Origin: an uncultured Chitinophagaceae bacterium
Lineage (GTDB): Bacteria > Bacteroidota > Bacteroidia > Chitinophagales > Chitinophagaceae
Assembly (NCBI GenBank): GCA_938017685.1
Contig: CALIIL010000103.1
Location: 1-36,060, forward strand
DNA: 36,060 nucleotides
Direction: 5' to 3'
The stretch's first letter is position 1. Every line of letters starts with the position of its first letter. The position numbers were made by a program, and so were the translations under genes. This document shows, piece after piece, positions 19,659 through 25,269 of the stretch. The notes under the pieces are model-generated. The model worked only from the letters and a program-made list of their open reading frames with translations. It was not told where the DNA came from and ran no database searches.

Positions 19659-21017
19659 ATGGCTGTAGAAGAATTGGTAATGCCTAAAATGGGCGAAAGT
19701 ATTACAGAAGCAACGGTATTGAAATGGATGAAAAATGTGGGCGATCCGATTGAAATGGACGAGACATTGTTGGAAATTGCTACGGACAAAGTAGATAGTG
19801 AGGTACCGAGTACTGTTTCTGGTACAGTATCAGAAATTCTTTTTAATGTGGATGATGTGGTTCCTGTAGGGACTGTGATTGCTAAAATCTCTACAGGAGG
19901 TGAGGCCGTTGCATCAGCGCCTGTCGCTTCGAGCGAAGTCGAGAAGCCAGCACCTACTCCTCAGCCGGTAGCCACAGCACCTGTATCTGCCCCTTCACCA
20001 GCGGCATCATCAAATCAACAAATCAACACATCAACTAATCATTCAGGCGAGCCTAATCGTTTTTACTCTCCATTGGTTATGAATATTGCCGCAAAAGAAG
20101 GTATTTCCATGACGGACTTAGAAAATATTGCCGGTAGTGGTAAAGAAGGCCGTGTAACGAAAAAAGATATTATTAATTACGTAAAAAATAGAGGCAATGC
20201 TCCTGTAGCTCAAACTGCAGCGGCAGCACCAGCAGCAGCCGTTGCCACACCAACCCCAGCGCAGCCAACTACATCAGCAGCTCCAGCTGCCGAGAAGCCA
20301 GCCAATCCGAACGAAGAAATTATACCAATGGACCGTATGCGTAAGCTTATTGCAAAGCATATGGTAAACAGTGTACAAACTTCTCCGCACGTTACCTCTA
20401 TGGCCGAAGCCGATGTAACCAATATGGTTAACTGGCGCAATAAAGTAAAAGGTGAATTCTTAGAAAAGAATGGCGAAAAGCTAACCTTCACTCCGCTATT
20501 TATAGAAGCGATTGTAAATTGTATCAAACGCAATCCAATGATTAATGTTAGCTTAGAAGGCGATAACATTATCGTTAAAAAAGATATTAATATTGGTATG
20601 GCCACAGCATTACCAACGGGCAACTTAATTGTTCCCGTTATAAAAAATGCCGATACAAAGAACTTGTATGGCATATCTAAAGAAGTAAATGGATTAGCTA
20701 ATAAAGCACGTGGCAATAAATTAAAACCAGAAGATACGCAAGGTGGAACATTTACATTAACTAATGTAGGAACCTTTGGTAGCTTAATGGGCACACCCAT
20801 TATTAACCAACCGCAAGTAGCTATATTAGCAGTAGGTGCGATTAAAAAACGTCCAGTAGTTCTTGAAACAGAACAAGGTGATGTAATTGCAATCCGCCAA
20901 ATGATGTACTTGTCTATGAGTTATGATCACCGTATTGTGGATGGTTCTTTGGGAGCTGGTTTCTTAAGCGAAGTGGCTAGAGAGTTAGAAAACTTTGATA
21001 CGAACCGTACGGTATAA
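19659..21017 (+). CDS. 2-oxo acid dehydrogenase E2 (dihydrolipoamide acyltransferase)
   Basis: E2 is the core of a 2-oxo acid dehydrogenase complex; it moves an acyl group from lipoyl-lysine to CoA. The 452-residue product has one lipoyl domain (1-78, lipoyl Lys44 in EIATDKVDSE) and an Ala/Pro-rich linker. It continues with a peripheral-subunit-binding domain (~135-176, FYSPLVMNIAAKEGIS to RVTKKDIINYV), a second linker, and the catalytic domain (~222-452) with His424 and Asp428 in SYDHRIVDGSLGAG. I cannot decide between branched-chain, pyruvate and 2-oxoglutarate type; no E1 or E3 is adjacent. The start is ATG 19659, which opens the lipoyl domain correctly. Residues 89-97 and 116-127 of the first linker are encoded by dispersed DNA repeats (see findings). 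Confidence 0.93.
   Translation: MAVEELVMPKMGESITEATVLKWMKNVGDPIEMDETLLEIATDKVDSEVPSTVSGTVSEILFNVDDVVPVGTVIAKISTGGEAVASAPVASSEVEKPAPTPQPVATAPVSAPSPAASSNQQINTSTNHSGEPNRFYSPLVMNIAAKEGISMTDLENIAGSGKEGRVTKKDIINYVKNRGNAPVAQTAAAAPAAAVATPTPAQPTTSAAPAAEKPANPNEEIIPMDRMRKLIAKHMVNSVQTSPHVTSMAEADVTNMVNWRNKVKGEFLEKNGEKLTFTPLFIEAIVNCIKRNPMINVSLEGDNIIVKKDINIGMATALPTGNLIVPVIKNADTKNLYGISKEVNGLANKARGNKLKPEDTQGGTFTLTNVGTFGSLMGTPIINQPQVAILAVGAIKKRPVVLETEQGDVIAIRQMMYLSMSYDHRIVDGSLGAGFLSEVARELENFDTNRTV
19923..19948 (+). repeat. Dispersed repeat inside the E2 linker
   Basis: GTCGCTTCGAGCGAAGTCGA with the following GAAGCC closely matches the intergenic copy at 23835-23858 (GTCAGTTCGAGCGGAGCCGA...). It is in frame and encodes VASSEVEKP. 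Confidence 0.65.
20005..20040 (+). repeat. CAAATCAACA-type repeat inside the E2 linker
   Basis: The stretch contains CATCATCAAATCAACAAATC followed by AACACATCAACTAATC. It encodes SSNQQINTSTN. It resembles the repeat at the start of the truncated priA frame (30867-30907). Confidence 0.5.
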
Positions 21018-21839: not shown

Positions 21840-22736
21840 TTGAAAAAAGGTTTCATATTCATTTTCTTATTTGTCACTCTGAGCTTGTCGAAGAGCTTTA
21901 ATTGCTTAGCGCAGAGCAGTGGCATTGCGGATACAGTTACTCATTTAATGTCTGATGCGATTAATGACACCCTTAATTCAGGTGTTAACATTAGTGATCA
22001 CATTGGTGAGAATATTTATTACATTGATAGAAAGCCCGTTTTAAATAGCAGCTACTCCAATCATATAAAGCAAATTCAATTAAAAAAACTATCCTTTAAT
22101 GATACAGCCGCACTGAGTATAGGCTGCAGCGCCAATAATGGAGTACAATATTTTATAGACGGTTATATCTCAAGCCCATTTAATCTTAAAAATATAGATT
22201 TAGAGGAAAAGAAGTTTAACGCAATGTATTCGACGAAGGATTATATTGGTTTCGGGTTATTTGGAACAATAAAACATTTGGGATTAGAATTAAACTACTC
22301 TATTTCTGATAAAGAATTTATCAAATTAAAAAAAGGGAAATACAAAGCAAAAGTTCGCCGTTGGGAATTATTCACACGCTATTATTACCACCGAAATTTC
22401 CACCATAATGTGATGTTTACTGCGGGAAGAACATGGGAGCGCGAGCTTAAAAAACACCGTTTTTTCATATCACAGGCCGATGTAGGAATAGCTCGTACCT
22501 TTTATGACCGGCCAACTTTTGAAGTTGAAAATGGTATTGTAAAACGTATGTGGCTGGCTGGAGATTTCTATTTCAATTTTAATTATCGATTGGGTTTTGG
22601 TAAACTTATAAAGCCAAGAAACAAAATATATAAAATCTACTCCTACTTCGGTTTAATGAACTTCTTCCCATATCAAAATCTCTATTACTCCCGCGTATAC
22701 GTAGGCATTAACCTCAATAAATTTATCAAGAAATGA
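21840..22736 (+). CDS. Exported protein of unknown function
   Basis: The 298-residue product starts at TTG 21840 with MKKGFIFIFLFVTLSLSKSF and a signal peptide ending near CLAQS (residue 26). The mature part is rich in aromatic and basic residues with amphipathic strands (VRRWELFTRYYYHRNFHH, then GDFYFNFNYRLGFGKLI, and a terminal YYSRVYVGINLNKFIKK). This suggests an outer-membrane beta-barrel or periplasmic protein; I do not recognise the family. Residues 12-19 of the signal peptide (VTLSLSKS) are encoded by a dispersed repeat at 21873-21896. It starts 2 bases after the dehydratase stop and overlaps the next gene by 4 bases (ATGA), so coupling is likely. Confidence 0.75.
   Translation: MKKGFIFIFLFVTLSLSKSFNCLAQSSGIADTVTHLMSDAINDTLNSGVNISDHIGENIYYIDRKPVLNSSYSNHIKQIQLKKLSFNDTAALSIGCSANNGVQYFIDGYISSPFNLKNIDLEEKKFNAMYSTKDYIGFGLFGTIKHLGLELNYSISDKEFIKLKKGKYKAKVRRWELFTRYYYHRNFHHNVMFTAGRTWERELKKHRFFISQADVGIARTFYDRPTFEVENGIVKRMWLAGDFYFNFNYRLGFGKLIKPRNKIYKIYSYFGLMNFFPYQNLYYSRVYVGINLNKFIKK
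21873..21896 (+). repeat. Dispersed repeat inside a signal peptide
   Basis: GTCACTCTGAGCTTGTCGAA followed by GAGC is a relative of the copy at 24721-24745 (GTCATCCTGAGCTCGTCGAA...). It begins exactly on a codon boundary and encodes VTLSLSKS. Confidence 0.65.
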
Positions 22737-23776
22737 AAAAGCTAATAGCCATATTACTTATTGCTCTTTTCTTTTCATGTGAGAAAGGACGCATCGATTT
22801 ATCAGAAAACACCGACGATATCTTCTTTGTAAAAAGTGGCGTAAACACCCTACCCGTTCGCGTAAAAGGCAATTCTAAATCCAATGTATTTGTCATTTAT
22901 ATCCATGGCGGACCAGGCGACCCGGGCATTTGGGAACATAATACAGAGCAAAGCATTGCTGAGATACAGCCACATTACGCCGCCGTATTCTTTGATCAAC
23001 CTTATGCAGGATTTTCTCAAGGTAATAATATTGCATCAGCCACTCCCGAAACATTTACGGAGGCTGTAAATGATGTGGTCATGACTATTAAATACCGATA
23101 TGGCGATGATATAAGTATATTTATAATCGGTCATTCATGGGGCGGTTTTGTATCGGCGGCTTACTTAAGCACCAAAGATTACCAAGACCAAATCAAAGGT
23201 TGGATAAATATAAGCGGCGCTCATAATTATATATTAGGTGACACTTTAGTGGGAGAAAAAATTATTGAAGTTGGTACAAGGCAAATGGCCCAAAATAAAA
23301 ATGCTAGCGATTGGCAAGCGATGATCGATTGGATTAATGCTAATCCTCCTGACGGAACTTCTAAGCGATCTAACAATATTAACTCTTGTGGATTTGACGG
23401 GATGACTTTAATGAGCGACTCAACCAATGCAGGTTTTGAAATGAATATTGGTAAAGTAATATTGGGTCAATATCAGCCGTGGGCCACGACGGCTTTTGTA
23501 ACAAATCTAATCTCTACCAATGTCTTAAACTTAAATCAATTAGCATTAGATAATGAAATGAGTTCCTCCCTTTATAAAATCAAAACGCCTGTCCTAAATA
23601 TTTATGGACAATATGATTTTATTGTCCCTTCAGGTCTAGGTGAAGATGTAATGAATAATGTAGGCTCATCATGGAAAAAATTAGTGATCATGGAAGAGAG
23701 TGACCACAACCCGCAATTGTCTGAACCGCTAAAAACACATCAAGAAATTCGAGCGTTTATTGAAATGTTTAAATAG
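22733..23776 (+). CDS. Alpha/beta hydrolase lipoprotein, prolyl-aminopeptidase-like
   Basis: The 347-residue product is a lipoprotein (MKKLIAILLIALFFSC, Cys16) with an alpha/beta-hydrolase fold. The oxyanion loop HGGPGDPG (58-65) is the form used by prolyl iminopeptidases. The nucleophile is Ser135 in GHSWGG, and the likely acid and base are Asp295 (YGQYDFIVP) and His325 (ESDHNPQ). A probable role is hydrolysis of peptides or esters in the periplasm or at the outer membrane; the substrate is not known. It overlaps the previous gene by 4 bases and ends the operon. Repeat copies begin 4 bases after its stop codon. Confidence 0.85.
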   Translation: MKKLIAILLIALFFSCEKGRIDLSENTDDIFFVKSGVNTLPVRVKGNSKSNVFVIYIHGGPGDPGIWEHNTEQSIAEIQPHYAAVFFDQPYAGFSQGNNIASATPETFTEAVNDVVMTIKYRYGDDISIFIIGHSWGGFVSAAYLSTKDYQDQIKGWINISGAHNYILGDTLVGEKIIEVGTRQMAQNKNASDWQAMIDWINANPPDGTSKRSNNINSCGFDGMTLMSDSTNAGFEMNIGKVILGQYQPWATTAFVTNLISTNVLNLNQLALDNEMSSSLYKIKTPVLNIYGQYDFIVPSGLGEDVMNNVGSSWKKLVIMEESDHNPQLSEPLKTHQEIRAFIEMFK

Positions 23777-23779
23777 ACC

Positions 23780-23827
23780 AATTTTGTGTCAATTCGAGCA
23801 GCAACTAATTTTGTGTCAGTTCGAGCA
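23780..23827 (+). repeat. Two truncated tandem copies of the dispersed repeat
   Basis: AATTTTGTGTCAATTCGAGC (23780) and AATTTTGTGTCAGTTCGAGC (23807) are 27 bases apart and differ at one base. They match the left part of the full copies near the GIY-YIG gene. Confidence 0.75.
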
Positions 23828-23834
23828 CCGGCCT

Positions 23835-23858
23835 GTCAGTTCGAGCGGAGCCGAGAAC
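23835..23858 (+). repeat. Dispersed repeat, plus orientation
   Basis: The 24 bases from GTCAGTTCGAGCGGAGCCGA to GAAC are the exact reverse complement of the copies at 24259-24282 and 24336-24359. The repeat therefore flanks the GIY-YIG gene in inverted orientation. A further fragment, TCGAGAACCT, at 23911-23920 overlaps the GIY-YIG stop codon. Confidence 0.85.
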
Positions 23859-23918
23859 CTTTATGCATCTCCAGTCAATACAAGCAACTTAATAACCAAA
23901 GATAATTGAATCGAGAAC

Positions 23919-24233
23919 CTATTTCTTATTCAAGTGCGATGTAAGATTCAAACATGCCGAATATTCCTTCAAATCTTCATAACGCTCCTCAATAATTGCC
24001 AACTTCTTTTTCTGAGACCATTTCTTTATTTGCTTTTCTCTAGATATCGCTTGCCTTATATCAGTAAAAGCTTCTACATACTTTAATTCAACCGGTCGTC
24101 TTGTATAAGTATAGGCTTTAATACTTTTGCCCAAAAAATGTTCTTCAAACCTGCGATATACATTATTTGTAACGCCAGCATAAAATGTATTGTCGGCACA
24201 TATTAAAATGTATACAAAGTATTCAAATTGCAT
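23919..24233 (-). CDS. Small GIY-YIG nuclease family protein
   Basis: The 104-residue single-domain protein of the UvrC/YhbQ-like GIY-YIG group has FVYIL (6-10) and YAG (18-20) in place of GIY and YIG, a conserved Arg in NNVYRRFEEH (Arg27/28), the TRRPVELKYVEAF strand and the catalytic-type Glu66 in SREKQIKKW. All expected active-site positions are present, so it may be a DNA nuclease. Its role is not known. It stands alone, reads against the operon upstream, and is bounded on both sides by inverted copies of the dispersed repeat; its stop codon lies in a repeat fragment. This suggests, without proof, that gene and repeat form one mobile unit. Confidence 0.9.
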   Translation of the reverse strand: MQFEYFVYILICADNTFYAGVTNNVYRRFEEHFLGKSIKAYTYTRRPVELKYVEAFTDIRQAISREKQIKKWSQKKKLAIIEERYEDLKEYSACLNLTSHLNKK

Positions 24234-24258
24234 TTTACTAAGTTAATGAATTTTATAT

Positions 24259-24287
24259 GTTCTCGGCTCCGCTCGAACTGACAAAAC
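24259..24287 (-). repeat. Dispersed repeat, minus orientation, copy 1
   Basis: GTTCTCGGCTCCGCTCGAAC followed by TGACAAAAC. It is identical over 29 bases to the copy at 24336-24364 and is the reverse complement of 23835-23858. It lies 25 bases upstream of the GIY-YIG start codon. Confidence 0.9.
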
Positions 24288-24335
24288 GGTAAGACCCGAT
24301 CAAATTGCATAAATCAAACTTAAGCATTCTTAACT

Positions 24336-24364
24336 GTTCTCGGCTCCGCTCGAACTGACAAAAC
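24336..24364 (-). repeat. Dispersed repeat, minus orientation, copy 2
   Basis: Exact 29-base duplicate of the copy at 24259-24287, 77 bases away. The 48 bases between them look unique. It is 29 bases from the methyltransferase stop codon. Confidence 0.9.
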
Positions 24365-24393
24365 TTTTATTCGCTTTTTTAATTAAAAAAAAA

Positions 24394-25269
24394 CTACTTT
24401 TTCTCCGCAGTAAAAATACAATACTCCCAAAGCCCGCGCTTCCAACATTGATATTGATAATAGGCACTCCACATATTTTCGTGTTTGCCTTTTCGTTTTC
24501 CAATTAATCGTAACAACCAGTCAACTGCAGCCGAAGGAATGAAAATGTAATACAATCGTTTTATACTTGGCGCTACATTTTTTGTAACCACATGCTTTTC
24601 AATATTCTTAAAACCAGCTTGTACTAATTGTTCTTCAAAGACTGTTTCATAAGCAAAATCTGAAACGGCCCAACTCTTTGCCCAGTTCTTCATGGCTGTT
24701 GTATCCTTTGTGTTTAATTTGTCATCCTGAGCTCGTCGAAGGGCCCCTTTCCAAAAAAAATCTAACACAACTAACTTGCCATCTTTTTTTAATAAGCGAG
24801 CCGATTCGCTAAGCACATCTAATTTATCCTGCGCATGACAATAGCTTTCTATACCATACACTAAATCATAATGCCCACTATCTAAACTCGTATTACAATA
24901 ATCCTCGGCATAGAATTTAGCATCCTCTTTTAAACCCATATGTTCAGCACGAGCATTTGCCTGAGTAATTTGTTTTCGAGTGATAGAAACTCCATCAACT
25001 TTAGCCTTGTACTTTTTAGCTAAATACATGGCTGGACCACCTAAACCGCAACCTAAATCTGCTAGCTGCATTCCGGCCTTTAATCCGCCATAATGCGCCA
25101 CTTTCTCTGTTGTATTATTAATGGCCTGTTCATGATTTTTGATACCTTTTTCCCAAAAACCATAATGTAATGACTTATGCTTTTTTATACCCCAGATTAT
25201 TTCATAATCCTTTTGAGAAGATTGATAATAGTATTCTACTTCCTCGTGATATGTTTTTTGCTTATTCAA
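24394..25269 (-). CDS. SAM-dependent methyltransferase, class I
   Basis: The 291-residue Rossmann-fold methyltransferase has motif I LADLGCGLGGPAMYLA (69-84), a post-I acidic region VDGVSI, motif II-like HYDLVYGIES (133-142) and LLKKDGKLVVLDFFW (159-173). The HYGFWEKG N-terminal motif and overall layout resemble the sterol C24 / tocopherol / small-molecule C-methyltransferase group; the substrate cannot be told. Residues ~174-184 (KGALRRAQDDK) are encoded by a dispersed repeat at 24721-24745 and appear to be an insertion in a loop between two conserved segments. No exact promoter element was found upstream, and it appears monocistronic. Confidence 0.88.
   Translation of the reverse strand: MNKQKTYHEEVEYYYQSSQKDYEIIWGIKKHKSLHYGFWEKGIKNHEQAINNTTEKVAHYGGLKAGMQLADLGCGLGGPAMYLAKKYKAKVDGVSITRKQITQANARAEHMGLKEDAKFYAEDYCNTSLDSGHYDLVYGIESYCHAQDKLDVLSESARLLKKDGKLVVLDFFWKGALRRAQDDKLNTKDTTAMKNWAKSWAVSDFAYETVFEEQLVQAGFKNIEKHVVTKNVAPSIKRLYYIFIPSAAVDWLLRLIGKRKGKHENMWSAYYQYQCWKRGLWEYCIFTAEKK
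24721..24745. repeat. Dispersed repeat inside the methyltransferase gene
   Basis: GTCATCCTGAGCTCGTCGAA followed by GGGCC is related to the copy at 21873-21896. Read on the minus strand it encodes GALRRAQDD in frame. Confidence 0.65.

Follow-up and report, generated by a model that had tools for sequence, protein, structure and literature searches.

The GIY-YIG Gene and Its Flanking Repeats

The window analyzed here is an entire contig of 36,060 bp (G000:C103) from a draft genome of 2.78 Mb in 178 contigs. Between the stops of a hydrolase gene and a methyltransferase gene lies a compact cluster: a small GIY-YIG nuclease gene, bracketed by copies of a short repeat (REP) whose tags point outward (Table 1). 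Three full copies of TGTCAGTTCGAGCGGAGCCGAGAAC are present, each identical at 25/25 positions, one past the 3' end of the gene and two, inverted, before its 5' end. In shuffled sequence, 0.00 copies are expected at up to 3 mismatches. The initial annotation had described exact inverted copies of 24 bases (23835-23858 against 24259 and 24336), a match that holds over even 25 bases. Furthermore, the window has seven occurrences of GTCANNNNGAGC, where 0.49 would be expected, and five of these seven are located at the GIY-YIG cluster.

Table 1. Features of the GIY-YIG cluster and its neighborhood (positions in the window).
Feature	Position	Strand	Remark
Hydrolase gene	22733..23776	+	Name is a reading of the translation
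Whole putatively inserted cluster, 617 bp	23777..24393		Flanked by the hydrolase and methyltransferase stops; the two genes abut in congener G002
Truncated REP head 1, GTCAATTCGAGC	23788..23799	+	Inside 24-base tandem 23777-23800 / 23804-23827
Truncated REP head 2, GTCAGTTCGAGC	23815..23826	+	Inside the same 24-base tandem; heads spaced 27 bp
Full REP past the nuclease gene's 3' end, outward tag	23834..23858	+	Identical to TGTCAGTTCGAGCGGAGCCGAGAAC
Possible fragment of a REP tail, overlapping the stop codon	23911..23920	+	About 9 bases in common with the repeat tail; too short to tell from random
GIY-YIG nuclease gene, 104 aa	23919..24233	-	PF01541; presumed catalytic residues kept in relatives
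Full REP before the gene start, outward tag	24259..24283	-	Identical to TGTCAGTTCGAGCGGAGCCGAGAAC
5' end of the unit, second copy: REP with a relic of the first 11 gene bases	24300..24364	-	53/65 identical to 24223-24287
Full REP, outermost on the right	24336..24360	-	Identical to TGTCAGTTCGAGCGGAGCCGAGAAC
Methyltransferase gene	24394..25269	-	Name is a reading of the translation
REP of a different family, in frame within the methyltransferase gene	24721..24743	+	21-bp gap there in both congeners

The two truncated copies announced in the initial annotation are present, but not at 23780 and 23807, where they had been placed; the heads proper are those listed in Table 1, inside a tandem whose units begin slightly upstream. 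The fragment over the stop codon, previously counted as a sixth repeat, is too short to be told from a chance match. At the right-hand side, the two REP copies agree over 30 bases and are part of a direct repeat of 65 bases with a diverged middle. A relic of the start of the GIY-YIG gene, ATGCAATTTGA, accompanies the second right-hand REP; hence, the 5' end of the unit is present twice. The truncated heads and the doubled 5' end make the window copy of the element a composite or a partly decayed one.

In the whole source genome, the 18-base core of the repeat has 10 exact copies, three of which sit at the window GIY-YIG gene, and 16 copies at up to 3 mismatches; the reversed control gave 0. 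A REP-like sequence, TGTCGCTTCGAGCGAAGTCGAGAAGC, is also visible at 19922-19947 of the window, as a possible insertion. It keeps the reading frame of a 2-oxoacid dehydrogenase E2-like gene and lies in the part encoding the linker, which is diverged in the congener. A further GTCA....GAGC head is found at 21873-21884, near the start of the ORF at 21840-22736.

The Encoded Protein

In a profile search, the window protein matches PF01541 with an E-value of 1.1e-18. Contigs were scanned with 11 aligned relatives, and the best 80 of the 553 confirmed loci were analyzed. These 80 are mostly from Bacteroidota, with a few from Ignavibacteria, Nitrospinaceae, Spirochaetes and others, and many are MAGs. 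Y8, Y18, G20 and H32 are invariant in the best 80 of the 553 loci, R28 is kept in 79 of them (Q once) and E66 in 78 (two gaps). Y8, Y18, R28 and E66 are presumably the catalytic Tyr, Tyr, Arg and Glu of GIY-YIG nucleases; their conservation across the homologues bears out the earlier statement that the likely active-site residues are retained. Judged by its PF01541 domain and these residues, the gene product is a member of the GIY-YIG nuclease superfamily.

The AlphaFold2 model of the window protein, built with 42 sequences, has a mean pLDDT of 91.7. Its closest folds are the UPF0213 protein 1zg2 (E 5.7e-5) and, next, Slx1 (E about 0.02). No separate DNA-binding domain was found in the window protein. 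TIGR01453 reaches 17.8 bits, below its cut-off of 56.05, and a profile of phage GIY-YIG homing endonucleases gives a marginal match (E 0.0092). An Rfam scan of the window returned no family at gathering scores, and no intron family. A role of the protein in a defense system was considered and dropped, as PADLOC gave no match for it. A plasmid or phage origin was likewise set aside, with no plasmid match and a single weak phage record.

Recurrence of the Repeats around Homologous Genes

Around the best 80 of the 553 loci, the motif GTCA.{3,5}GAGC is concentrated at the gene: its density falls from 5.1 per kb within 100 bp to 3.9 between 100 and 200 bp, 2.0 between 200 and 300 bp and 0.07 between 4 and 10 kb. 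Thirty-one of these 80 loci do not have this motif. Taking them as unlinked was wrong, since 21 of the 31 contain a variant, GTCA.{1,3}[TC]TCGA (GTCA...TTCGA), within 400 bp; two of these 21 (L119 and L125) are single weak matches. The typical form of the variant repeat is [TC]GTCA[CG]TTCGAGTG...GTATCGAGAA. The variant motif was picked after the loci had been inspected, and the controls were scanned with it as well.

With both motifs, a REP is present within 300 bp on at least one side of the gene in 66/80 loci, and on both sides in 49/80 (best 80 of 553). As a control, 946 further ORFs in these loci, situated 700 bp or more away, were scanned; 77 have a REP on one side or more and 8 on both sides. 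The layout of the window, which the initial annotation proposed to look for in related genomes, is thus recurrent. Other GIY-YIG subtypes have no REP within 300 bp in any of 18 loci, typed by eye as UvrC-like (6), other long frames (4) and small UPF0213-like or other genes (8). These were taken from 23 other-subtype loci in all, and the five short ones left out of the 18 are motif-free too. One further clade has a TGAGC...CGAA hairpin in 5/6 loci, mostly with a GGT tag; this looser motif stands outside the 66/80. Moreover, 29 loci of relatives (L033-L061) were inspected for repeats outside these counts: most have GTCA-tagged or similar repeats beside the gene, and several are without (e.g., L038, L053, L054, L060).

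Within the source genome, the expectation that GIY-YIG paralogues would be flanked by the same repeat was not confirmed: the other seven GIY-YIG matches are without the window repeat. Six of them look like other subtypes. The seventh (L026, G000:C93) is a second related gene near a contig end, interrupted by a stop in the matched frame; upstream of it, in frame, an apparent palindrome with a different tag is seen.

Repeated truncated heads were encountered at the window and at L042, L067, L077, L095, L102 and L135. They would fit an imprecise repair of breaks in the REP loop. Six loci duplicating the window were left out of the nested-repeat scan. At L035 and L047, long tandem arrays with REPs, in units of ~108 bp and 176 bp, lie beside GIY-YIG genes.

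Anatomy of the Repeats and Link to the Protein Clade

The orientation was examined for 193 REPs within 500 bp of 80 genes (best 80 of 553 loci). The nearest tag points outward in 35/41 cases upstream and in 31/38 downstream of the gene. Over all REPs, the outward bias is weaker: 71 to 39 upstream and 53 to 30 downstream. The base before GTCA near these genes (best 80 of 553 loci) is T in 193 and C in 5 of 202 cases. Among the same best 80, units with outward REPs on both sides are found at 32 loci, with a median length of 446 bp. The junctions of these 32 units are well conserved, with T before the left tag in 31/32 and A after the right tag in 30/32.

The organization tag-arm-GAGC-core-CGA-arm fits 160 of the 193 REPs; the 33 non-fitting ones were left out of the arm analysis. 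At the four arm positions, Watson-Crick pairs are formed in 157, 153, 144 and 141 of the 160 REPs. Shuffling of the 3' arms gives mean values of 132, 90, 42 and 52, with maxima of 141, 102, 58 and 71. As many as 29 distinct 5' arms occur among the 160 REPs: the arms are variable, yet complementary. The DNA folding energy of four REP stretches is no better than that of shuffles (z -0.17 to -0.44); hence, the support for a hairpin comes from covariation and not from energy. A simpler model, a perfect 5-bp hairpin right after GTCA, showed no enrichment near the gene and was replaced by the present one.

The type of repeat follows the protein tree. Nine changes are needed against a mean of 31.5 after shuffling, with none of 200 shuffles as low; for the variant repeat type, a single change is needed against 16.7. 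This is a quick tree of 79 of the 81 proteins, each with at most 125 residues, in which few branches are firm, with only 8 of the 76 inner ones starred. The coupling of repeat type to protein clade fits cognate nuclease-REP pairs; an inheritance of the whole unit would look alike.

Presence and Absence in Relatives

Two congeners were compared, G001 (70% complete) and G002 (99% complete). Neither has a GIY-YIG homologue at E 1e-8 or the window repeat at up to 2 mismatches. In G002, the hydrolase gene (72% identity) and the methyltransferase gene (78%) converge with abutting stops, where the window has 617 bp between them. The absence of the whole cluster from this orthologous site agrees with the initial view of gene and repeats as one unit. 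The methyltransferase gene of G001 lies in another context, and the G002 site could be a deletion; for this reason, a gain in the window lineage, rather than a loss in G002, is likely and not proved. The gap in the congeners opposite the REP of the methyltransferase gene (Table 1) falls in a diverged stretch of the alignment.

At L044 (G066:C2), a GIY-YIG domain is found in frame inside an HsdR gene, with REPs on both sides. In the comparison with the solved HsdR structure 3h1t, only 8 residues of the latter stand opposite residues 251-378 of the translated stretch. The two REPs closest to the gene have their tags inward. At L046 (G009:C32), a GIY-YIG unit precedes, in one frame, a PurK-like protein, named from a reading of its translation.

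Gene-Less Doublets

In two genomes of one genus, G079 and G092, REP pairs of 108-135 bp were identified that contain no gene. These 18 doublets (13 and 5, respectively) come from 33 stretches, the other 15 of which gave none by the criteria used, and align as a single family: a conserved left end (REP + ...GTAGGTGGCATAA), a conserved right end and a variable middle. T precedes and A follows the doublet in 18/18 cases, with G at -2 in 16 and C at +2 in 15. A target-site duplication is found in 0/18. The flanks of the first 11 doublets, up to 1.9 kb per side, have matches of 24-111 bp only, which are read as apparent other dispersed repeats.

The GIY-YIG unit G092:C42 has the same REP and junctions as the 18 doublets. 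A GGWGGCA-containing subterminal sequence is present at both of its ends and resembles the left end of the doublets. In a second unit, G092:C28, a REP is nested in the loop of another, and the same nested piece is found beside the C42 unit. For four genes beside two G079 doublets (read as rlmN, iscA-like, rpoD and yihY-like), no REP motif was found in the 1.5 kb around the best G092 matches. A clean empty site for the C42 unit was not obtained in G079: the unit is missing from the matching interval (read as topA-purB), but other genes are present there and the interval is rearranged.

At L143 (Ignavibacteriota), the GIY-YIG unit has two ends that differ from each other, and the ends of two 66-bp doublets in this locus resemble them. 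These doublets and those of G079/G092, all from genomes other than that of the window, resemble MITEs in that their terminal inverted repeats are also those of an element with a gene in the same genome, for G079/G092 the C42 unit; the 18 doublets differ from MITEs by the missing target-site duplication. Farther than 1 kb from the genes (best 80 of 553 loci), outward pairs (11) are not above inward ones (14), next to 6 tandem and 23 single REPs.

Distribution across Genomes

A generic REP pattern, GTCANNNNGAGCN{3,4}YCGA, was counted in 99 genomes, with 10 copies as a threshold of our choice. At least 10 copies are present in 14/99 genomes, among them 11 with a homologue at E 1e-8. For homologues below 1e-17, at least 10 copies are found in 9/15 genomes with the gene against 5/84 others (Fisher p 4e-6, kinship ignored). 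The generic form of the repeat is thus not equally common without a close homologue, an outcome in favor of the initial proposal.

In the remaining 6 of the 15 close-homologue genomes, the generic pattern occurs fewer than 10 times. In G058, G044 and G009, which have a homologue and few copies, the repeats near the gene deviate from the generic pattern. G003 (13 copies) and G088 (29 copies) have GIY-YIG matches in long frames only and no stand-alone gene, and G047 (10 copies) has a small GIY-YIG gene with the motif absent nearby. The REPs of G088 are an orphan REP population. Many of the 29 are arranged in tag-to-tag pairs ~20 bp apart, and the sole GIY-YIG match of this genome lies in a UvrC-sized frame. 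The source genome itself has 60 copies of the generic pattern; hence, most of them belong to REP families other than that of the window.

Comparison with Known Systems

One small enzyme gene between inverted REPs, with gene-less doublets as likely non-autonomous derivatives, is the layout of REP/RAYT systems (REPtrons) and REPINs. The comparison made in the initial annotation is therefore right for the layout, but does not extend to membership: REP/RAYT systems have a Y1 (HuH) transposase and a GTAG tag, whereas a GIY-YIG enzyme and a TGTCA tag are found here.

To our knowledge, there is no bacterial precedent for DNA mobility by a lone GIY-YIG domain. Nucleases of this fold, the Ssn family, reportedly cut single-stranded DNA site-specifically at a sequence repeated in Neisseria (NTS), in a study that appeared in Nature Communications in 2025. 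The Neisseria Ssn target is said to be repeated hundreds of times, and Ssn to be linked to cleavage and natural transformation. Set side by side with this description, the present system has in common a single-domain GIY-YIG nuclease paired with a short genome-wide repeat. If the description holds, a pairing of GIY-YIG nuclease and repeat is already known in kind. New beyond Ssn would then be the existence of a unit, the relatives of it that have no gene, its absence from a congener and the spread in Bacteroidota; the Ssn family is not known to include mobile units, doublets lacking a gene or empty sites. GIY-YIG homing endonucleases of group I introns have the same nuclease fold; they differ from the present case, in which the window contains no intron family, TIGR01453 stays below its cut-off and a separate DNA-binding domain is missing.

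The terminal tag, TGTC in the window, is that of the CGTC-tagged REPs, which were defined with TGTC variants accepted and with tag-outside pairs (Di Nocera et al. 2013, PMC3733652). TGTC/CGTC-tagged palindromes are found in several phyla. Those of the 2013 paper have in common with the present repeats the tag, a short palindrome, outward-tag pairs and REPs inside genes. The four families described there have a stem of 8-9 bp, a loop of 4-5 bases and AT in the first stem positions, whereas the arms are 4 bp here, with a mismatched inner part and a core of variable length; stem and loop sizes seem to differ. In the same paper, these REPs are described as apparently without a dedicated transposase, and none of the tyrosine transposase genes was found flanked by CGTC REPs (PMC3733652); in the present loci, on the contrary, the GIY-YIG gene is a regular partner. 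Among the titles and abstract starts of open-licence papers listed in a literature search, none describes GIY-YIG genes with REPs.

Interpretation

The cluster is probably a small mobile element of ~450 bp, with a lone single-domain GIY-YIG nuclease gene and outward TGTCA-tagged REPs as its ends, which is copied through the action of the nuclease. The enzyme would recognize its cognate REP as single-stranded DNA or as an extruded hairpin (fixed tag, GAGC...CGA core, variable paired arms) and would nick it. The element or its ends could then be copied to new sites, so that complete units, doublets of REPs lacking a gene, and solitary REPs arise. It is assumed that the window nuclease, and not another enzyme, drives this copying; this is the simplest reading, because the nuclease gene is the only one in the unit and its clade tracks the repeat type. 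Several observations run counter to it: G003 and G088 are rich in REPs but have no stand-alone gene, 6 of the 15 close-homologue genomes are poor in the generic pattern, the paralogues of the source genome are free of the window repeat, the nearest tags at L044 point inward, outward pairs far from the genes are no more frequent than inward pairs, and Y1 transposases might act in trans.

Cutting without transposition, as by Ssn, is an unlikely account of the same data. The nuclease would cut single-stranded DNA at REPs, shaping uptake or recombination, with the REPs spreading otherwise and the linkage kept by selection. Neisseria Ssn, reportedly a GIY-YIG single-strand nuclease with a repeated target, would be a model for this; the covarying REP arms and a predicted fold close to UPF0213 and, next, to Slx1, a structure-specific nuclease, are in agreement with it. 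However, cutting alone is no sufficient explanation for a unit that is absent from a congener, that sits in frame in HsdR and whose ends are common to gene-less doublets. Homing is quite improbable: older REPs would move otherwise, and the GIY-YIG gene would be a free-standing homing endonuclease inserting between or beside REPs, its recognition sites. The marginal match to the phage homing endonuclease profile points in this direction, as does the persistence of REPs without a stand-alone gene in G003 and G088, but the repeat type tracks the protein clade and no intron family is present in the window. Moreover, the subterminal sequences of G092:C42 are alike at both ends, whereas the right ends of the doublets differ, so the C42 unit is something other than a doublet into which a gene has inserted.

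In the least credible account, a Y1 (RAYT-like) transposase acts in trans to move the REPs, and the GIY-YIG gene is a passenger. The layout is like that of REP/RAYT systems, and Y1_Tnp matches were indeed found in 11/11 genomes searched. Among the 42 matches, 12 were without a locus and 3 of the other 30 loci had no clear central ORF, which leaves 27 analyzable. However, no REP of this kind lies within 300 bp of 25 of these 27 Y1 genes, the other two having one weak one-sided match, and the transposase genes in PMC3733652 point the same way, as described above.

Returning to the mobile element driven by its own nuclease, the recurrent pairing of gene and repeat suggests, at the level of sequence, a jumping element of minimal size, and it offers a candidate enzyme to repeats that had none. 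Whether this amounts to a previously unrecognized class of minimal bacterial transposons is an even call: a GIY-YIG nuclease would be its sole enzyme and TGTC/CGTC REPs its ends, the nuclease would be the missing mobilizing enzyme of the CGTC superfamily, the doublets would be its REPINs, and the whole would be a counterpart of REP/RAYT. With a regular partner gene, the spread of TGTC/CGTC REPs becomes directly testable. If it is true that the nuclease drives the movement, this would be a new use of the GIY-YIG fold in bacteria. If the nuclease is not the mover, many genes annotated merely as GIY-YIG nucleases would still be marked as a repeat-linked system.

Small GIY-YIG Genes at tRNA Genes

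UPF0213-like GIY-YIG genes were encountered near tRNA genes at six loci: L025, L028 and L030 (G000:C151, C152 and C92; Arg, Leu and Val) and L052, L059 and L154 (Asp, Lys and Met). Such a gene resembles an element of a single gene that resides in tRNA genes. At the four loci that were measured (L025, L028, L030 and L059), the gene starts 6-42 bp past the tRNA. It is followed there by a partial tRNA copy of 14-47 bp, corresponding to the 3' end in three of the four and preceded by a short hairpin in three.
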